35,305 bases of DNA from Myxococcales bacterium (GTDB taxonomy: Bacteria; Myxococcota_A; Polyangia; Polyangiales; Polyangiaceae): NCBI GenBank assembly GCA_013297655.1, contig JAAFHV010000075.1:1-35305 (forward strand). The letters run 5' to 3'. Positions 3,332 through 33,824 of this stretch are shown here, piece by piece. Below the pieces are notes generated by a model, which saw nothing but the letters and a program-made list of their open reading frames with translations, did not search any database and was not told the DNA's origin. Position numbers and translations under genes: made by a program. Every line of letters starts with the position of its first letter. Positions within the stretch are counted from its first letter, which is position 1.

Positions 3332-4228
3332 ATGAAACGTCTCTCGTTCGTGACAGTCGTGTTCGTCGCTGCCTCGTTCTCGCCCATCGTGGCCTATGCC
3401 GAGGAGGGACAGAGCTCCCCTCCCTCGTCGCCCCCGAGTCCGCCCTCCGCGCCGCCTCCGGCGTCCCCGCCAGCGGCGGCGCCGAATCTGGCGACCGCGC
3501 CGCTGCCGGCCGTGCCCGAGGCCGGCGCCGCGACCCGAAACGAATCGGCCGAAGCGCTGACGGCATTTCGTGCGTGGGTCACGCCACGAGCGGAGCCGGA
3601 GCGCGCCTATCGCTGGATCGGAGCGGTGTCGGAGTTGGCAGTCGGGGGCACTCTGCTACCCGCCGGCGCGGTGCTCTATTCACGCGAAGGCTCGGCGGTG
3701 ACGGGGGCGCTCATTGGTTTGGGTGTAGGCGGTTTGGTCGGAGGCCTCCGGACGGTAGTGTTCGGGAGCGACATCGACGCCCACGATCGCGCGGAGAGCG
3801 CGATGGAGCACGAGCGAGCGCTCGGACACGACGACGCGGCGGTGCTCGCGGCGGGCGAGAACGAGCTCCATCGGGCCGCGGATTCGCAGAGGCTCGAGCG
3901 TTTGGTCGGCGGCGGCATCGGGGCGGGCCTCGGCGTGGCCGCGCTAGGGTGGGGCGCGGCCTTCGCGGCGGCCGATTTTACGAGCAGCTCGTTCACGCGC
4001 CGGCAGCAAGACGGAGTCTCGGTCGCGCTCCTGTTGGGCGGCGCGATATGCACCGTCACGAGCCTCCAGGCGCTCCTGTTGCCGTCTACGGCCGAGGTCT
4101 CTTGGCAAGGGTATAGCCAAACGAAGCGCGCGAAGTCGGTCGCCGCGTTCGCGCCGAGCGAGGTCGCGTTCCACGCCACTCCGCTCCCCGGCGGCGGCGC
4201 GAGCGCGGGGATCTCGGGGAAGTTCTGA
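3332..4228 (+). CDS. Secreted or envelope protein with proline-rich linker and glycine-rich membrane segments
   Basis: 298 aa. The ATG at 3332 is preceded by AAGGA at good spacing and opens a clear signal peptide (residues 1-23, ending 'AYA' before 'EEG'). Residues ~29-70 are a Pro/Ala/Ser-rich linker. Then come glycine/alanine-rich hydrophobic stretches ('VGGTLLPAGAVLYS', 'ALIGLGVGGLVGG', 'GGGIGAGLGVAALGWGAAF', 'VALLLGGAICTVTSLQALLL') separated by a charged, His/Glu-rich helix. The design resembles other Polyangia periplasmic or membrane proteins with no assigned role. I do not recognise a domain and propose no function. It stands alone, divergent from the LysR gene. Confidence 0.75.
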   Translation: MKRLSFVTVVFVAASFSPIVAYAEEGQSSPPSSPPSPPSAPPPASPPAAAPNLATAPLPAVPEAGAATRNESAEALTAFRAWVTPRAEPERAYRWIGAVSELAVGGTLLPAGAVLYSREGSAVTGALIGLGVGGLVGGLRTVVFGSDIDAHDRAESAMEHERALGHDDAAVLAAGENELHRAADSQRLERLVGGGIGAGLGVAALGWGAAFAAADFTSSSFTRRQQDGVSVALLLGGAICTVTSLQALLLPSTAEVSWQGYSQTKRAKSVAAFAPSEVAFHATPLPGGGASAGISGKF

Positions 4229-24144: not shown

Positions 24145-25173
24145 ATGTACTTGTCCGCGGCAGCGCAGGGCCTCGTCGAGAGCGCGATGGCGCTGGCTGC
24201 GGAGCGCGCCCACAAGACGCTACGGCTCGCGCACGTCCTCCTCGCGATCGTGGACGACAACGAGGGGATCGTCGCGATCGGCAAGGCGCAGCTCTCGCGG
24301 CGAAGGCTCCGCGACGCGCTCGTTTCGGAGCTCGGCTCGGCCTCCCCTTACCGGAGCGCGACGCCGGTCGATCCTGCCTCCGACGCGGTGCTCGCCGCGC
24401 TCGCGCGCTCGCTCTCTTTCGCGAAACGAATCGGCTTGGTCGAGACCTCGGCCTCCGACGTCCGCGAGTACGTGATCGGGAGCGAGGAGCTCGCGGCCCT
24501 CGTGTCGTCTGCTCGCTTCGATCCCGATCGCATCGACGTGTTCGCGCGGGGGGCAGAGGTCGCCGCGCGCAAGTATCGGAGCCCGTTCGTGCTCGTGGAG
24601 CACGCGCTCCTCCACGCGCTCGAGATGGACGAGGTCCGCGATCCCCTCGTGCGGGCCGGGTTCGATACCGAGGCGCTCGGGACGAAGCTCGCCGCCCACG
24701 CGGAGTGGTCGCACTCGGGGGCGATCGTCGCCGCCCCGAAGCTCCTCGAGTTCGCGGTGCTCAAGGCCAACGTCGCCGACGCCCCCACGCTCTCCCTCAC
24801 GCCGATCCTCGCCGATGTCCTGCGGAGGGGGGTCACGCGAAAGACGCTGAAAGCCGCTGGCATCGACGCTCACGAGGTGTTCCTCGGGCTCGTGCATGGT
24901 GCACCCGTTCACGTCGATCCCGAAGGCGCGGTGCGGCCCGAGCTCGTGTTCCACGACGACGACATGACGACGATGGAGCACGTCGTCGTCACGCTCCAAG
25001 AAGAGCTCGATCTCTCCACCGCGGACGCGATCGCAGCGATGCGCGTGGTTCACGAGGAAGGGCGATCGACGGTCTCGGTCGGATCACGTGACGCGCGCGC
25101 CGTCGCGAAGGCGATCCGCGCCCGCTCGAAGACCGACGGGATGCCCCTCCGCGTCGAGCTCGTCCCCTTGTAG
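24145..25173 (+). CDS. Clp N-domain-like repeats fused to a ClpS adaptor domain
   Basis: 342 aa, ATG 24145. Residues 264-342 are a complete ClpS domain: 'ELVFHDDDMTTMEHVVVTLQ', 'AIAAMRVVHEEGRSTVSVGS', 'ARAVAKAIRARSKTDGMPLR'. Against E. coli ClpS the N-degron pocket residues Asp35, Asp36, Thr38, Met40 and His66 are all kept; Asn34 is Asp. Residues 1-~240 resemble Clp_N repeats ('AMALAAERAHKTLRLAHVLL', 'FARGAEVAARKYRSPFVLVE', 'LADVLRRGVTRKTLKAAGID'), the domain to which ClpS normally binds on ClpA/ClpC. No AAA+ module is present. So adaptor and its docking-type domain lie in one chain without the unfoldase. A role in delivering N-degron substrates, or as a self-inhibited or decoy adaptor, is inference. 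It lies 233 bp behind groEL, with a terminator between them. Confidence 0.75.
   Translation: MYLSAAAQGLVESAMALAAERAHKTLRLAHVLLAIVDDNEGIVAIGKAQLSRRRLRDALVSELGSASPYRSATPVDPASDAVLAALARSLSFAKRIGLVETSASDVREYVIGSEELAALVSSARFDPDRIDVFARGAEVAARKYRSPFVLVEHALLHALEMDEVRDPLVRAGFDTEALGTKLAAHAEWSHSGAIVAAPKLLEFAVLKANVADAPTLSLTPILADVLRRGVTRKTLKAAGIDAHEVFLGLVHGAPVHVDPEGAVRPELVFHDDDMTTMEHVVVTLQEELDLSTADAIAAMRVVHEEGRSTVSVGSRDARAVAKAIRARSKTDGMPLRVELVPL
24501..24549 (+). repeat. In-gene partner of the inverted 49-bp duplication
   Basis: Lies inside the Clp_N-ClpS gene and encodes part of 'SSARFDPDRIDVFAR'. Pairs with 24001-24049 (47 of 49 bases, opposite orientation, 451 bp apart). Transcripts that include both could form a very long stem. 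Confidence 0.9.
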
Positions 25174-25227: not shown

Positions 25228-28170
25228 TCATCGGGGCTCGGGCGGTTCGCGGCGCGCGTTTTCCTTGGGCTTCGGCACATCGAACGCACCGAGCGCGAAG
25301 TCATCGAGGTTCCGGTAGCGACGGCGCGGTGCGAGGTGCGGCTCGCGATCCTCGCCTTGCGCGTCGCGGTCGTCGCCCGTGTCGGCGTGATAAACGCTCG
25401 GGCCGAGCACGAGATCGTACGCCGGGATCTCACGGCCGTCCTCGCGGTGCGGCGCGACGCGGACGTGGAGCCCCGCGAACGGCGACGGCTCGCGTGATTC
25501 TCCCATGCCGAAGCCGAGGGCGACGACCATGGGGTCTCTTGCTGCGCCGGCGTCTGGCTTCACCTTCGGTTTTCCTTCGCGGACTGCGAACACCGCGCCC
25601 TCCGGTCCTATCGCGAGCTTCGTCTTCGGCGACGCGGCATCGCCGTGGTGATCGGTGAGGGTGATCTCGGCCTCCGTCGCCGCGCTCGCGCGCACGAAGA
25701 GGCGGAGCGAACCGTCGTCGCAGTGCTCGACCTTGCCTTCCACGGTCGGCTCGGGGGGCGCTGGCGCGGTGTAGCTCTTGGACCAATCGGCGAGGTGCGG
25801 CTTCTTCCACGCGTCGCCGTCGGTCCAGCGCGCGTTGGTGAGGCCGTCGCGCGCCTCGTATCCAGTCGCGACCGGACCCACCATCATGCGCGGCTCCCCT
25901 CCCGCGTCGACGACGAACACGCCGAGCCGCGCCGCCTCCGCGCCGAGCATGAACGCGTAGTGCGTATGCGCGTTCGTGGCCACCTCGCCGATGAAGTCGG
26001 AGCCTTTTTCAGCGAGGTTCGTGCGATCGGTGAAAAGATCGTAGTACCAACCCATGCGCTTCGGAGGGCCGTGCGAGTCGCCGCCGTAGCCGCCGTCGGG
26101 GGTGTACTCGGTCACCATCCCGAGGTAGCGCGCTTCGTCGCTCGTAAGCGCGCGGCCCTCGAGCTCGTGCTTCACGATCGTGATCAGGGCACGCAGCACG
26201 GCCGACGTCTTCGTGAAGTAGTCGCGGCTCGCTTCGTCGCGCCCGGACATCGCGCGACCACGCTCGGAGTACTTGAGCAGCGCCTCGTACGCGGGCAAGT
26301 GCGGCTCCACGTAGGCGTCGGGGATGTCGCACCCGTACGCGTCGTAGGCCGAGCCGCTCATCAGCACGAAGTTGTGACGAATCTGTCCATAGCCCACGAG
26401 CGCGCTGTCGAGACGAAGCGCGGCGTGGGCCTGCGTCTTCCAGAAGCTCGGGAGCCTTCCCTCCGCTGGCGTAGAGAGCGCGAGCACCGCGGTCATCCAC
26501 GCGTCGTAGAGCGAGCTTCCCGCGGCCGAGTCGGCGCGTAGCTTCGGAGCGAGACCGAGCGCCACGTCGTGGCCCTGTTTCCTCCCCGCTCCGCGTGCTG
26601 CCGCGTCGTGACCGAGGAGCGCGCCGAACACGTCGGCGTCGAGGTTCGCGGGGTACACCGCGCGCATCACGCTGCCGACCGGATCGAGATCGGGCGCCAC
26701 GCGCGCGCCGATCAGGGTCGCGATCGCGGGCAGCTTGCCCTCGTGATCGCCTGGAAAAACCGGCATCGGGTGAGTCACTGCATAGCGCACGTATTTCGCG
26801 CCGATCGCGGTCTTCAGCGCGTCCGGCGCGTTGGGGGCTTGGCTCGCGGGGAGGGCGAGCTTCTTGAACGACGCGATCGGCACGTCGTCGCGCACGCCGC
26901 CGAATGTAGAGTACACCTGCTCGAAGCGGTCGAGGTGCGGCCTCGCGTTCGCGCGATCGACGAGCTCCGCGACGAGCATTGCAACACGAGCTTCCCGCGG
27001 TGTCTCTGCTGGGGAGCACCCCCCGCTCACCGGGGTCGAGCTCTGGCACCCGCGCGTGACGAGGTTCCACTCGTGACGCGAGAGCCAGGTGAGGACTTGG
27101 AAGTAAGAGCCGAACGAGAGCGCGGGCTGCTTGCCGCCGGGGCTGTCGTCGGGGCGGTAGCCGGCGTAGTGGCCTGCGGGGGTGAACTTGGAAAAGTCGA
27201 TGTCGCGCTTTCGGCCATAGATCTCGACCGTCTCGATGCCTGCATTCTCCCCGTATTTGTTCATCTTGTGGGCGAGGTCGTCGGCGAGCGCGTCGTTCTT
27301 GGGGAACCGGCTCGTCGGGCTCGGGCGCTCCATGAGTCGCTCCGCGACGGTGAGGTAGAGGTCCACGTCCTCCGCCGCCTCCGAAGCAGGCACCGAACGA
27401 AGCGCGGCGCGGAGCCCGGTGACGAGGTCGACCGCGCGCTTCTTGAGGTCGGTGCGCTCGATGCCTTCGAGGAGCGCGTCCTCGGAGCGGAACACGGCGT
27501 GGAGGATCGAGTCGGCGGTGACGTAGAGCGGGAGCTGCTCTTGGAACACGTCGTGGTAGGCGGCGACGTAGCTGTGCACCGGCCTGCGCTCGAGCACCAC
27601 GAAGCCGTTCTTCGCGAGCAAAGCGCGCTCCGCTTCCGTGAAGTGAAGGTGCGCGTCTACCTTCGCCGCGTACTTGGGGGGCCTATTTTTGTCCCACGCC
27701 GTAGCAACGGGGGTCGGCGCCGGCGGCGGCATCGAGGTCATCGAGGAGGTCGGATCGAGCCGCGGCGCTGCGATGGCCCGTGTACCTTGCACGGTTTTCC
27801 TGGCCGCGTCGTCGATGTTGGATTGGGCGAGGAAGCACGTGTCGCCCTTTGTGGGCGGGAAGTCGTAGCGGTCCGCCATCCCGCACGGCTCGGGGGTGTT
27901 CGATTGGTAACCCTTGCAGAGGCCGTCGGGGCGTTCGAACGGCTTCGCTCCCCGGTTCGGCTCCGTCACAGTGGTGCCCATCGCGCAGATCGTGTCGTGG
28001 CTCGGGAGCTCGGCGCGCGCGGCCGACGACGAAGGAACCGCGCGCGTTCCCGCGTCCGCCGTCGTGGCGTTCGGCGCCTGCGCCGTGACCCCCGGCGTTG
28101 TTTCGTGGCAATGCAAAGCTCCACCGGCGAGGACGATGGAGACGAGCCCGAGCAGGAAACGACGGCGCAT
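25228..28170 (-). CDS. DUF3160-family secreted protein or lipoprotein
   Basis: 980 aa from ATG 28170, chosen because it opens a signal sequence ('MRRRFLLGLVSIVLAGGALH' then Cys21; His before the Cys is unusual for a lipobox). Residues ~30-160 are a low-complexity and Cys-containing linker ('CAMGT', 'GLCKGYQ', 'EPCGM', 'DTCFLAQ'). The DUF3160 core follows: 'LLAKNGFVVLERRPVHSYVA', 'AYHDVFQEQLPLYVTADSIL', 'HAVFRSEDALLEGIER', then 'SFGSYFQVLTWLSRHEWNLV', 'GYGQIRHNFVLMSGSAYDAY' and 'AHTHYAFMLGAEAARLGVFV'. The family is large, extracytoplasmic and of unknown function. The C-terminal ~150 residues are a beta-rich domain ('LRLFVRASAATEAEITLTDH'). It is divergent from the small gene at 28247 (76 bp). 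Confidence 0.85.
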   Translation of the reverse strand: MRRRFLLGLVSIVLAGGALHCHETTPGVTAQAPNATTADAGTRAVPSSSAARAELPSHDTICAMGTTVTEPNRGAKPFERPDGLCKGYQSNTPEPCGMADRYDFPPTKGDTCFLAQSNIDDAARKTVQGTRAIAAPRLDPTSSMTSMPPPAPTPVATAWDKNRPPKYAAKVDAHLHFTEAERALLAKNGFVVLERRPVHSYVAAYHDVFQEQLPLYVTADSILHAVFRSEDALLEGIERTDLKKRAVDLVTGLRAALRSVPASEAAEDVDLYLTVAERLMERPSPTSRFPKNDALADDLAHKMNKYGENAGIETVEIYGRKRDIDFSKFTPAGHYAGYRPDDSPGGKQPALSFGSYFQVLTWLSRHEWNLVTRGCQSSTPVSGGCSPAETPREARVAMLVAELVDRANARPHLDRFEQVYSTFGGVRDDVPIASFKKLALPASQAPNAPDALKTAIGAKYVRYAVTHPMPVFPGDHEGKLPAIATLIGARVAPDLDPVGSVMRAVYPANLDADVFGALLGHDAAARGAGRKQGHDVALGLAPKLRADSAAGSSLYDAWMTAVLALSTPAEGRLPSFWKTQAHAALRLDSALVGYGQIRHNFVLMSGSAYDAYGCDIPDAYVEPHLPAYEALLKYSERGRAMSGRDEASRDYFTKTSAVLRALITIVKHELEGRALTSDEARYLGMVTEYTPDGGYGGDSHGPPKRMGWYYDLFTDRTNLAEKGSDFIGEVATNAHTHYAFMLGAEAARLGVFVVDAGGEPRMMVGPVATGYEARDGLTNARWTDGDAWKKPHLADWSKSYTAPAPPEPTVEGKVEHCDDGSLRLFVRASAATEAEITLTDHHGDAASPKTKLAIGPEGAVFAVREGKPKVKPDAGAARDPMVVALGFGMGESREPSPFAGLHVRVAPHREDGREIPAYDLVLGPSVYHADTGDDRDAQGEDREPHLAPRRRYRNLDDFALGAFDVPKPKENARREPPEPR

Positions 28171-28246
28171 ACCCGGAGCGTCGCACGAGGGGCAGGAAGT
28201 GTGACAGCGCACGTGAAACCGGCGCACACGACGCTACGCTCGAGCG

Positions 28247-28733: not shown

Positions 28734-29717
28734 TCACTGCTGCGCAGGCGCGGCGTGGATTCGGTGCTCGGGTCCCTTCTCGATCTTCGCGGCCAGCTTC
28801 TCGCGCTGCGCCGGGGTGAGCACCTCCGTGATCGCGGCGAGCTCTTGGAGCATGTGCTCGTGCATGCCCTTCATGCCCTTGCCCATCTCGGGCGCGTTCG
28901 CGGGCTTGGCGAGGAAGGCGCTCGCGTCGAAGGTCTCCTTCGTGAAGCTCTCCAGGCGAGCCTTGTGCTCTGCACGCATCGTCTCGAACTTGGTCTTCAT
29001 CGCTTCGCGGTCGGCCTCGGAGGGCGCGGCGGGGCGATTTGCCTGCATTTTGGTGCGAATCTGCTCTTTCTGAGCGTCGGTGAGGTCGAGGTCTTGGAGG
29101 AGGCCGAACGCGCCGTTCATGCCCTCGGGGCGGCCGTGACCTTCGCCGCCTTCGGGGCGCGGGCCACCGTGGTGACCGCCGCCGTGGCCCATGTGTCCGC
29201 CGGGGCCGCCGGGGCCCTTGTGGCTCTCGACCGCCGCGACGAGCTTCTGACGCTGCTCGGGGGTGAGGGTGGCGTGGAGAGTGGTGAGTGCCTTCTTGGC
29301 CGACTCGAGGTGCGCGTTCATCGCCGTCGCATCGGGGGCGCCGGGGCCGTCGACAGCGAGGGTCGTGACGTCGACTTTGCCAGCTCGGACCGCGGCGGCG
29401 AGCTTCGCGCTATGAGCTTTCATCTTCTCTTCGCCACCCTGCGCCGGTGCCGGGGGGCGGGCCGCGTCGAGGGCGCTGCGAATGGTGCTCTTCTGCGCGT
29501 CGGAGAGGCCGATGTCCTCGTGGAGCGCGACGACCAAGAGGTGCTCGGGTCCGAAGAACCCGTGGTGCATCGGGCGCGCTTCGTTCGGGGCCTGCGTCTG
29601 GGACTGCGCTTGGCTCGCCGAAGCGGGGTCGGTCGACGCGCCGTTGGCGCTGCAACCCGCCATCGTGAGGAGAAGGCCGAACATCGAGAGCGAGGTCGAG
29701 AGGCGGAACGATTTCAT
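28734..29717 (-). CDS. Tandem Spy/CpxP/ZraP-like periplasmic lipoprotein with His-rich linker
   Basis: 327 aa. ATG 29717 preceded by AAAGGAG; lipoprotein signal 'LSMFGLLLTMAGC' (Cys22). Four LTxxQ-type motifs: LSDAQ 71-75, LTPEQ 151-155, LTDAQ 212-216 and LTPAQ 300-304. Spy/CpxP/ZraP proteins have two per chain, so this is a tandem duplication. The halves are joined by a Gly/His/Pro linker at ~168-196 ('GGHMGHGGGHHGG') able to bind metal. His51-52 and a His near the C-terminus add to that. Family members are periplasmic chaperones induced by envelope stress; ZraP also binds zinc and restrains its sensor kinase. This gene is divergent from a sensor kinase/sigma-54 regulator pair and has a sigma-54-like promoter of its own, so it is probably their target and feedback partner. 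Confidence 0.82.
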   Translation of the reverse strand: MKSFRLSTSLSMFGLLLTMAGCSANGASTDPASASQAQSQTQAPNEARPMHHGFFGPEHLLVVALHEDIGLSDAQKSTIRSALDAARPPAPAQGGEEKMKAHSAKLAAAVRAGKVDVTTLAVDGPGAPDATAMNAHLESAKKALTTLHATLTPEQRQKLVAAVESHKGPGGPGGHMGHGGGHHGGPRPEGGEGHGRPEGMNGAFGLLQDLDLTDAQKEQIRTKMQANRPAAPSEADREAMKTKFETMRAEHKARLESFTKETFDASAFLAKPANAPEMGKGMKGMHEHMLQELAAITEVLTPAQREKLAAKIEKGPEHRIHAAPAQQ

Positions 29718-29781: not shown

Positions 29782-29823
29782 AAGGGCTCGGCGGTTACCG
29801 CATCGAGCACGAGGACACCTAAT

Positions 29824-29838
29824 GCAGCGGCCATGCCA
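29824..29838 (-). promoter_or_regulatory. Sigma-54-like promoter for the Spy/CpxP-like gene
   Basis: Minus strand TGGCATGGCCGCTGC: -24 TGGCA and -12 TGC with the obligatory 12-bp distance between the GG and GC doublets; two of eleven consensus positions differ from TGGCACG-N4-TTGC. Predicted transcript start near 29812, giving a ~95-nt leader. The enhancer-like palindrome at 29901-29917 is centred ~97 bp upstream. Confidence 0.6.
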
Positions 29839-29900
29839 CGCGAAAATCCCTGCCATTTGCCCTGCTCCGACGCGGGAAGATGCGAGGTCCGCAGCGATGG

Positions 29901-29917
29901 AGTGCGGATTCCGCACT
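29901..29917. promoter_or_regulatory. Enhancer palindrome for the sigma-54-dependent regulator
   Basis: AGTGCGGATTCCGCACT: perfect 8-bp arms around one base. Half sites TCCGCA at 29888 and TCCGCACT at 29930-29937 flank it. It lies between two divergent sigma-54-like promoters, ~97 bp from each predicted start, the usual distance for NtrC-type upstream activator sites. The regulator encoded at 31440 is the natural ligand (inference). Confidence 0.65.
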
Positions 29918-29979
29918 CGTGCACCGGTGTCCGCACTCGTCGCACCCTCCTCTTGCGGTGCGCGCGGAGACAACAGGCG

Positions 29980-29994
29980 TGGTACGCGATTTGC
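29980..29994 (+). promoter_or_regulatory. Sigma-54-like promoter for the sensor kinase operon
   Basis: TGGTACGCGATTTGC matches TGGCACG-N4-TTGC at 10 of 11 positions with exact GG-GC spacing. Predicted transcript start near 30006. The kinase start at 30010 would then be nearly leaderless; the ATG at 30112, with GGGGGAG in front, would have a ~106-nt leader. Confidence 0.6.
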
Positions 29995-30009
29995 GATGCG
30001 AGCCGCAGA

Positions 30010-31439
30010 ATGAGCACGTCGATCGAGGGCGCGGAGGCCCAAGCGTCCGCGGCGGCTGCGAAGCCGACCCCGAAACGACCCGCTTCATGGTCCGCGCGGG
30101 GGAGTCTCCCGATGGCGCTCCTCGCCGCGCTCGCGCTGGTGGCGACCGTCTTCGTCGCGCAGCGCACGCTCACCGAGGCGTCCGACGTGGTGGTGCGCGG
30201 CGAGGCCGACTCTCTCGCCGGCACCGTGCTCGCCGCCCTCACGGACAGCGAGTCCCCGCCGACGCAGGCCGACCTCGCGCGCGAGCTCGCGGAGCAAAAG
30301 GCAAAAGGCCTTCGTTACATCGCGCTCCTCGGACGTGACGGAAAGCCAACGCTGGAAGCAGGAGAGGCGCGCCTCGCGGGCAAGCCGATGGTGCCCGGCA
30401 CGCCGGTGATCGCAGACGATCGCGCCCGTGTCGTCGCGCCCATCATGCCGCGCCATCACCAACGGTTCGGCCGCCACCAACCCGACGGTTCGCGCATCTT
30501 GCCGGACGGTACGCGTATCTTGCCGGACGGTACGCGCATCGCTCCCGACGGAACACAGCACGCGCCTCCCTTCGACGGCCCGCGCGGGCCAGGCCTCGGT
30601 CTCGAACGAGGCCCATTTTTCCCTATGCTTCTCGTGATCGAGATCGAGCCGCCGGTGCTCGCGCGTCTTCGTGGTGGGCTCACCCGCATCTCGGTCGTCG
30701 CGGGGGTGGCCGGCGCGGTGCTCGTCGCGTTCGCGGTCGCGTGGTCACGAAGCGCGAAGCGGCTCGCGGAGGTGGAGGCCCAGGCCGCGCGCGAGCAGCG
30801 CCTCGTCGCGCTCGGCACGATGTCGTCGGTGATGGCGCACGAGCTGCGTAACCCGCTCGCGTCGTTGAAAGGTCACGCGCAGCTCCTCCTCGAAGATCTC
30901 GAGGACGGTAAAATGAAGACCAAAGCCGCGCGCGTGGTCGCCGAGGCCGAGCGCATCGAGGAGCTCACGACGAGCCTGCTCGACTTCGTACGCGACGGAC
31001 CGGTCGACGTGGAAGAGATCGCTCCGCACGACTTGATCGAGCGCGCGCTCCACGACTTGCCTCGAGATCGTGTGTCCGTGTCGCTCGATGGGGCGCCGAA
31101 GTCGGTGCGCCTCGACACCACCCGCGTCGCGCGCGCGCTCCACAATTTGGTGCAAAATGGGCTGCAGGCGAGCGACGAGGGCACGAAGGTGGATCTCGCC
31201 GTGTCGACGGAGCGCGACGATCTCGTCTTCAGGGTGCGCGATCGCGGCAAAGGGCTCCCCGAGGGAGCGGAGGCGCAAATCTTCGAGCCGTTCATGACCA
31301 CGCGCGTGCGCGGCGTAGGTTTGGGCTTGCCCGTCGCGCGCCGGATCGCGGAGCAACACGGTGGCTCGCTCAAGGGCGCGAACCACACCGGAGGGGGCGC
31401 CGAGTTCGTCCTTCGTCTCGCGCGCACGATGGAGAAAGC

Positions 31440-31443
<4 letters not shown>
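30010..31443 (+). CDS. Membrane sensor histidine kinase, ZraS-like
   Basis: 477 aa from ATG 30010; ATG 30112 (443 aa, GGGGGAG upstream, starting at the first membrane helix) is a serious alternative. Helix 1 '[17 protein letters not shown]' (~35-51), a periplasmic sensor region to ~226, helix 2 '[20 protein letters not shown]' (~227-246). The sensor region has a His-rich stretch '[11 protein letters not shown]' followed by four heptads 'PDGSRIL / PDGTRIL / PDGTRIA / PDGTQHA'. HisKA has the phosphoacceptor His277 in '[16 protein letters not shown]'. The ATPase shows an N box '[13 protein letters not shown]', 'DRGKGLP' and '[18 protein letters not shown]'. It would sense an envelope signal, possibly metal, and phosphorylate the regulator whose ATG overlaps its TGA. 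Confidence 0.88.
30481..30564 (+). repeat. Four 21-bp repeats in the kinase sensor region
   Basis: Unit is about CCGGACGGTACGCGTATCTTG; units 1-3 are nearly identical and the fourth is diverged. They encode the PDGxRIx heptads described for the kinase. The DNA similarity suggests recent expansion. Confidence 0.75.
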
Positions 31444-32783
<1,340 letters not shown>

Positions 32784-32834: not shown

Positions 32835-33824
32835 CTACCGCCGCGGAATGCGGTGGGTCTCGTCGAGCACGCGGAGGGTCGCGAAGGTGGAGAGCCTGCC
32901 CGCGCGGGCCTCGAAGCCTCGTCGGTAGTCGACCGTTACGCGGAGCACGCTCGGCGCTGCGTCGTCCCCGGGCGAGCTCGCGATCGCGATCGTGAACGAA
33001 CGAGGCGCCTCGTCGAGGCGCGTGTCCGTGAGCGGGTCCGGGCCGCGAGCCGACCCGAAGGCGGCGCGATGCGCGTCCCAGTCGCGGTGGAGCGAGGCCT
33101 CCATCTCGCCTACGATTTTTCCTTCTGCGGACTCGACCCACGCGCGCACGAAGAGCTCCCGAAAGATGTCGCCCGTCGGCAGCTTGTGCCCCACCCCTCG
33201 CGCCGCGAGCGAGAACGTCACGTCCGTTGGGGCGCGCGCGACGTAGGTCAGCGCCAGCGATTTCGCGAGGAACGTGGCATCGCGCGACACCGCGAAGCGA
33301 TGGTCGCGGCCGCGGGGAGCGACGCTCTTCATGTGGCATTCGGCGCAAGGCACGTCACGCGAGGAGCTCGCGCGGTGCTCGGTCGCGGTGCTCTGGAGGA
33401 ACGTGCCGGACCCTTCCGAGGTGAGCTCGTGGCATGCCGCGCAGGCGCGTACGTCGTGCGGCGCCGAGGCCTTCGCCGCCGCGATCGACGCGCGTGATGC
33501 GCGCGCGTGGTCCTCGGCTCCAGGGTGACAGCTCTCGCAGTCGATCCCCCGCGAACCCCCTTCCTGCGCCCCGCGGTCTTTGGCGCGCGGGGCGTGGCAA
33601 TTCGCGCAAAAGGGAAGAGGCTCCTCGGCGTACGACGCTTGGAAATCCGGGCTCGAGAAGCTTGCGTGATGCATGGACTTCTCCCACCCGCGCCACTCTT
33701 CGACGTGGCAGCCTCCGCATGGTTCCTCGTTGCTCCGAGCGGGAGCCGGGCTCTCGGTCGCGGATCGGGCCGCGCAGCCCAAGAAAACCAACGCGACGGT
33801 CGAGCACAGCGCGGCGCGGACCAT
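32835..33824 (-). CDS. Five-heme c-type cytochrome lipoprotein
   Basis: 329 aa, ATG 33824. Signal 'VRAALCSTVALVFLGC' with Cys17 as probable lipid site. Five CxxCH heme-binding motifs: CGGCH 36-40, CANCH 73-77, CESCH 96-100, CAACH 128-132 and CAECH 160-164. Extra His at 'MHHASF' and elsewhere can be distal ligands. The layout resembles the cytochrome c554/multiheme family that moves electrons in the periplasm or at the outer membrane. The C-terminal half (~175-329) is heme-free and beta-rich ('VARAPTDVTFSLAARGVGHK' onward). One base separates it from the stop of the upstream gene, so they share a transcript. Electron partners are unknown. Confidence 0.85.
   Translation of the reverse strand: MVRAALCSTVALVFLGCAARSATESPAPARSNEEPCGGCHVEEWRGWEKSMHHASFSSPDFQASYAEEPLPFCANCHAPRAKDRGAQEGGSRGIDCESCHPGAEDHARASRASIAAAKASAPHDVRACAACHELTSEGSGTFLQSTATEHRASSSRDVPCAECHMKSVAPRGRDHRFAVSRDATFLAKSLALTYVARAPTDVTFSLAARGVGHKLPTGDIFRELFVRAWVESAEGKIVGEMEASLHRDWDAHRAAFGSARGPDPLTDTRLDEAPRSFTIAIASSPGDDAAPSVLRVTVDYRRGFEARAGRLSTFATLRVLDETHRIPRR

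Follow-up and report, generated by a model that had tools for sequence, protein, structure and literature searches.

A probable shared sigma-54 control region with a conserved, predicted operator in a ZraPSR-like two-component locus of a Myxococcales bacterium

Two divergent sigma-54 promoters placed at equal distances from a perfect palindrome raise the question of whether one regulator serves the genes on both sides, and whether the symmetry itself matters. We addressed this question in a stretch of 35,305 nucleotides (the window; contig JAAFHV010000075.1) from the 9.9-Mb draft genome of a Myxococcales bacterium. Here, a spacer of 292 bp separates a gene for an LTXXQ lipoprotein on the minus strand from an operon on the plus strand (30010-32783) encoding a kinase and an NtrC-type regulator; the nearest named loci of such regulators belong to a Myxococcales metagenome-assembled genome and to Myxococcus. 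The features of the spacer and their excess over chance, the recurrence of the palindrome in related loci, the clustering of its distances to promoters and the gene families involved were all observed directly. From them we infer binding, phosphorylation, activation, signal and autoregulation, and consider it likely that the spacer acts as a sigma-54 control region for both directions in a ZraPSR-like two-component system for envelope stress, with the regulator driving both promoters from the palindrome.

The gene on the left (28734..29717, minus strand), the predicted target of the left promoter, has its ATG preceded by a strong Shine-Dalgarno sequence (AAAGGAG), and its translation matches PF07813 in two stretches. 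With 53.3 bits against a gathering score of 24.3, the product belongs to the LTXXQ (Spy/CpxP) family, the only domain family detected; Metal_resist PF13801, the family of ZraP, gave no match. Similarity to Spy (3oeo) extends over residues 207-319 (phmmer, E 3.6e-6). The protein starts with a lipoprotein-like leader and carries a His/Gly-rich linker between its two LTXXQ domains. Its structure model, built on an alignment of three sequences, is helical with a mean pLDDT of 66.8, and at this low confidence no PDB structure matched it at E up to 0.001. Spy works as a dimer, and the lipoprotein, whose two LTXXQ domains are joined in a single chain, may correspond to a Spy dimer fused into one polypeptide. 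The source genome holds a second LTXXQ gene (L120, G000:C24:15485-15775), where the exact operator core is absent. The phmmer search with the lipoprotein also returned marginal ClpC N-domain matches, and a separate chain encoded at 24145-25173 (plus strand) combines a weak Clp N-terminal domain match with a C-terminal ClpS adaptor domain; a DUF3160 protein of 999 aa is encoded at 25228-28227 (minus strand).

The first gene of the operon (30010..31443, plus strand) encodes a sensor histidine kinase with HisKA and HATPase_c domains. An alternative ATG at 30112 has a good Shine-Dalgarno sequence, but this start would lose an N-terminal stretch that is covered, from residue 25-27, by the tblastn alignments of the related loci L027 and L107, and it is judged less likely than 30010. 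The predicted sensor region of the kinase, at about 30478-30556 (plus strand), contains near-perfect repeats (26 residues) with HHQRFGRH just before them. The second gene (31440..32783, plus strand) encodes the response regulator, a predicted sigma-54 activator whose Response_reg, Sigma54_activat and HTH_8 domains (PF00072, PF00158 and PF02954) place it in the NtrC family. Its loop reads GSFTGA, one residue off GAFTGA, the usual loop motif of NtrC-family activators. The genome contains 149 matches to the regulator, receiver-only and activator-only proteins included, and a single gene for sigma-54 was identified. A gene for a multihaem cytochrome c-like protein (Cytochrome_C554; 32835-33824, minus strand) lies convergent with that of the regulator. 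The lipoprotein and the kinase both have His-rich stretches, which do no more than hint at metal as the signal.

The two promoters were scored with a sigma-54 matrix derived from the 42 E. coli ChIP sites in Table 1 of PMC4591121. The left site, TGGCATGGCCGCTGCA (29838-29823, minus strand), is the best match in the window with a score of 16.8, and the right site, TGGTACGCGATTTGCG (29980-29995, plus strand), is the third best with 13.3, ranked over all positions on both strands; both have the GG-N10-GC arrangement. With position -12 assigned to the C of GC, the predicted starts fall at 29812 and 30006. Simulation of 2 Mb of sequence produced scores as high as that of the left site at a rate of 5e-7 per position on one strand and never on the other strand; for the right site, the rates on the two strands were 8.5e-6 and 3e-6. 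A plain consensus scan is less striking, with six matches in the window, two of them the divergent sites, against 3.2 expected, and 6 of 100 shuffles also reached six matches.

Between the promoters lies the perfect palindrome GAGTGCGGATTCCGCACTC (29900..29918), composed as GAGTGCGGA-T-TCCGCACTC and predicted to be the main operator. The initial annotation had proposed the two divergent GG-N10-GC sites, which the matrix ranks bear out, and a perfect palindrome of 17 bp between them, which is indeed perfect and so placed but extends to 19 bp with arms of 9 bp; its coordinates, with the centre at 29909 lying 97 bp from both 29812 and 30006, are correct. Palindromes of odd length with perfect 9-bp arms would turn up by chance in about 0.3% of stretches this long. 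Allowing up to two mismatches, the palindrome is found at a single place in the 9.9-Mb genome, with four more places at three mismatches, and its 13-bp core also occurs once, with about 0.4 occurrences expected from the composition of the window. A terminator or a repeat element was ruled out by the lack of an adjoining T run and by the single copy, and a wide regulon in the source genome is unsupported, with the exact core found only once there.

The palindrome is flanked by two weak putative operator copies. One is centred at 29887 (29878..29896), 22 bp to the left, with two core mismatches and a neighbourhood tail probability of 0.009; the other is centred at 29929 (29920..29938), 20 bp to the right, with three core mismatches, one good half site (TCCGCACTC) and a tail probability of 0.005. 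Second copies 22-24 bp away recur in related loci, in stronger form in L112, L072, L038 and L027 and more weakly in L107, and in L133 a distance of 23 bp separates two cores with one mismatch each. Hence, where the initial annotation had envisaged one dimer site for both operons, the shared region and its conserved operator stand, whereas the operator probably consists of one strong and two weak dimer sites and not of a single one.

Comparison of related loci offers a greater level of detail about this operator. We scanned the 1 kb upstream of the regulator gene, spanning the kinase start, for the core TGCGGA-N-TCCGCA. The 58 rows of the comparison comprised the window, 47 loci (L027-L072 and L074) from an 80-locus set and 10 loci of a second set; 54 were scored, leaving aside L035, L061 and L068, which are without a kinase ORF, and L054, where the upstream stretch is too short. 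The 54 include the paralogue-level regulators L115 and L116, and L114 apparently repeats L044. Near the kinase start, the core is exact in 14 of the 54 loci and present with at most one mismatch in 22, as compared with none of the 54 for a reversed-pattern control. The other 33 loci of the 80-locus set, with regulators about 39-48% identical, served as the comparison set; among the 28 with enough sequence, no core was exact and one had at most one mismatch. Seven of the 14 exact loci form one Myxococcus/Pyxidicoccus group, so that the independent support is below the raw count. All 19 bases of the palindrome are identical in L027, L031, L034 and L043, where the kinases are only 37-51% identical to that of the window. 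A held-out search gave 33 matches, six of them already in the earlier set; the remaining 27 loci comprised 11 duplicates and 16 new loci (three incomplete), and five of these 16 carry the core with at most one mismatch anywhere in the retrieved stretch. Across the phylum, two strict operator-plus-promoter patterns are rare (6 of 377 and 3 of 377 genomes).

The regulators of these loci share a DNA-binding segment, GIGxRTLYxK(L/I), found in all 22 operator-bearing loci and in 46 of the 58 rows overall; E. coli ZraR and two aligned paralogues from the same genome lack it. Since 24 further rows without the core, or unscored for it, also carry the segment, it marks the regulator group and does not discriminate operator use. 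The divergent gene varies among the loci whose upstream genes were classified: it is an LTXXQ gene, as in the window, in L027 and L107, both with an exact core; Myxococcus L028 has, in divergent position, genes for an outer-membrane efflux protein and an ABC ATPase; and the divergent reading frame of L074 is an alpha/beta hydrolase. In L050, an LTXXQ/Metal_resist gene stands between operator and kinase, on the same strand. L046, where an efflux gene is divergent, has no core within one mismatch. In the betaproteobacterium Niveibacterium, the core has one mismatch, and sigma-54 matches lie at 109 bp, scoring 15.8, and at 108 bp, scoring 7.0 and thus close to the 90% null level. Seven Myxococcus/Pyxidicoccus loci (L028, L029, L031, L032, L034, L037 and L043) have a second exact core about 1350 bp upstream of the regulator start (-1350), 267-294 bp from the first and nearer the kinase gene; it has no outward sigma-54 match above the 90% null level and might act as a roadblock or as another anchor for looping.

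The distances between operator centre and predicted start adopt a restricted range of values. The left distance is 96 bp in all seven Myxococcus/Pyxidicoccus loci; L038 shows 96 bp, L045 95 bp, L027 95 bp on the right (with a GG variant) and 151 bp on the left, and L107 106 bp on the left, with no good promoter on the right. When one value per clade and a promoter score of at least 10 are taken, four of the 13 values outside the window fall at 95-97 bp, a clustering with P of 3e-5 to 7e-4 against uniform spacing, under a null that ignores kinship between clades. Scores below 10 kept L070 (97 bp, 9.6), L033 (96 bp, 6.4) and the right side of L074 (108 bp, 7.0) out of this count, as well as the right-hand Myxococcus/Pyxidicoccus matches (110-134 bp, about 7) and L112 (scores below 6). 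Where a locus has two operator copies, one distance was used: 119 bp for the right side of L038 (95 bp from the second copy), 110 bp for L072 (86 bp from the other copy) and, in the held-out set, 108 bp for L133 (85 bp from the other copy). The held-out distances are 96 and 109 bp in L143, 95 bp in L157, 98 bp in L135, 108 or 85 bp in L133 and 112 bp in L150; two of the six values fall at 95-97 bp (P 0.015) and three at 95-98 bp (P 0.0015).

These distances bear directly on the symmetry. In the window, L027, L038 and L143, each side has a promoter with a score of 10 or more, and of these four only the window is exactly symmetric, so strict mirror symmetry as a conserved design is ruled out by L027 (151/95), L107 and the other two-sided loci. 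The earlier suggestion was that the symmetry is hard to obtain by chance; the promoters and the palindrome do exceed chance expectation, and the exact symmetry is not conserved. The equidistance is better explained by both promoters lying at the distance favoured by the regulator group (95-97 bp), as two promoters at that distance to one operator are necessarily equidistant.

The spacings further hint at helical phasing. A comb fitted to 15 values gave a best period of 11.3 bp, with P 0.0006 after scanning periods and 0.024 with the 96-bp cluster counted once; with the period fixed, the Rayleigh P is 0.006 for 10.5 bp and 0.28 for 10.0 bp, and the held-out loci gave P 0.02-0.05. Such periodicity, near 11 bp, is suggestive only. 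As a doubtful extension, we hypothesize that the regulator group, which would be one so far undescribed as such, in Myxococcota and Niveibacterium, keeps its operator on one helix face relative to the sigma-54 polymerase, on a comb of about 86, 96, 108, 119 and 131 bp. The two window promoters would then share the operator array at the same rung, and a single activator ring could alternate between them.

A competing explanation, quite unlikely in our estimate, holds that the left promoter is the sole sigma-54 target and that the kinase operon is read from elsewhere, the right-hand match being decayed or fortuitous. The right predicted start leaves a leader of only 4 nt to the ATG at 30010, which would suit this explanation, as would the fate of the doublets in relatives. 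The initial annotation had proposed conservation of the palindrome and of both GG/GC doublets as a check; the exact palindrome core is present in L027 and L107, with one-mismatch cores in L133, and the left doublets are kept in all three, but the right doublets are kept in none, with GC changed to GG in L027 and no match in L107 or L133. The right-hand Myxococcus/Pyxidicoccus matches, at about 7, also lie near the 90% null level of 6.9. On the other hand, the right site of the window is the third best in 35 kb and sits at the group-favoured distance; L143 and L038 have promoters of at least 10 on both sides, and L027 joins them when its GG variant is allowed; and, as tabulated in PMC4591121, E. 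coli zraS carries a sigma-54 site. Sigma-54 control of both sides is preferred, with autoregulation of the kinase operon less certain than control of the left gene because the right-hand doublets are not conserved.

It is very improbable that the palindrome serves as operator for a different DNA-binding protein, such as a repressor, instead of the neighbouring regulator. Of the 54 related loci, 32 have no core within one mismatch in the 1-kb region, but the core tracks the loci of this regulator (22 of 54, compared with 1 of the 28 loci of more distant regulators), lies at clustered distances from sigma-54 starts and has one copy in the genome, as would suit a regulator acting locally. Coincidence of motif matches and symmetry in GC-rich DNA can be practically dismissed: the weak plain consensus scan and a rough reckoning of about 1 in 100 for an exact midpoint given two promoters leave room for it, but the matrix ranks, the simulated rates, the recurrence of the core in other genera and the spacing clusters do not.

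Under the preferred reading, of regulator-driven control from the palindrome, the kinase would sense a periplasmic disturbance, possibly metal or misfolding, and phosphorylate the NtrC-type regulator of its own operon. Regulator dimers would then bind the palindrome at 29900-29918 and, more weakly, the copies 20-22 bp to either side. The bound regulator would assemble an AAA+ ring and, through DNA looping, drive sigma-54 polymerase at the two outward promoters. The left promoter would express the Spy-like lipoprotein gene, and the right promoter the kinase/regulator operon, amounting to positive autoregulation. Each promoter would sit at the favoured 95-97 bp from the operator, the symmetry as such not being required.

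This arrangement closely resembles that of ZraPSR (HydHG) of E. coli, in which a periplasmic protein gene is likewise divergent from a kinase/NtrC-type regulator operon and the zraP-zraS spacer has sigma-54 sites at both ends with an inverted repeat between them. The zraP and zraS sites of strain K-12 score 17.2 and 16.1, values that are not independent, as both sites are in the matrix taken from PMC4591121. In the E. coli spacer (L117), with starts at 3714 and 3906, the repeat copies are centred at 3790 and 3821, so that the centre of the pair lies 91.5 and 100.5 bp from the two starts. The repeat itself differs, with GAGTAAAAATGACTC copies in E. coli, as read here from the sequence, compared with TGCGGA-W-TCCGCA in the window. 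The kinase scores 144.7 bits, below the ZraS equivalog cut-off of 479, and the regulator 363.1, below the ZraR cut-off of 760; the AtoS and AtoC models outscore ZraS and ZraR on these proteins, also below their own cut-offs. ZraP matches Metal_resist PF13801, whereas the window protein is an LTXXQ protein with two domains. The window system would work like ZraPSR but, judged by curated scores and families, contains no ZraS, ZraR or ZraP member. The window protein has the LTXXQ family in common with E. coli Spy and CpxP, but falls below the NCBIfam cut-offs for both and differs in its lipoprotein-like leader, two domains and His/Gly-rich linker; Spy and CpxP are not known to be sigma-54 genes. 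In E. coli, PMC8249747 describes the zraP-zraSR spacer as the single main ZraR target in genomic SELEX, and PMC7657598 reports ChIP-exo peaks upstream of zraP and zraSR and links ZraR to envelope stress.

Two regulators of Myxococcus xanthus provide further comparisons. As presented in PMC11841059, NmpR resembles the window system in being NtrC-like, in having paired dyad sites upstream of sigma-54 promoters, with a favoured spacing between the paired sites, and in autoregulation, but differs in its consensus, GCGCA-N5-TGCGC, and its oxygen-related regulon. Nla28, according to PMC9765219 and PMC7910581, is an autoregulated NtrC-like protein whose half site, CT(C/G)CG(C/G)AG, can share TCCGCA with the operator described here, and differs in that a large regulon is predicted for it. 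Promoter and half-site strings for nla28, the former built from a published table and all compared as strings only, are absent from 132 loci at zero mismatches. Among the open-licence PMC papers searched, no description of the operator or of the favoured operator-promoter distance was found, and the letters TGCGGATTCCGCA turned up only in a paper that by its title concerns cancer.

The system is ordinary in kind, with a ZraPSR-like layout that is already known but a conserved DNA site of its own, at which one stress regulator very probably docks to turn on both a chaperone-like protein of the periplasm and its own operon. TGCGGA-W-TCCGCA would provide a specific, testable operator for a regulator group in genomes that are rich in NtrC-type activators whose targets are mostly unknown. 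It would be tied to envelope genes, namely the LTXXQ genes of the window, L027, L107 and L050 and those for the efflux protein and ABC ATPase of Myxococcus L028. The favoured operator-promoter distance across genera offers a data set on the helical-phase dependence of looping by NtrC-type activators and, if one ring does serve both promoters, that ring could couple the output of effector and regulator or set the two in competition.
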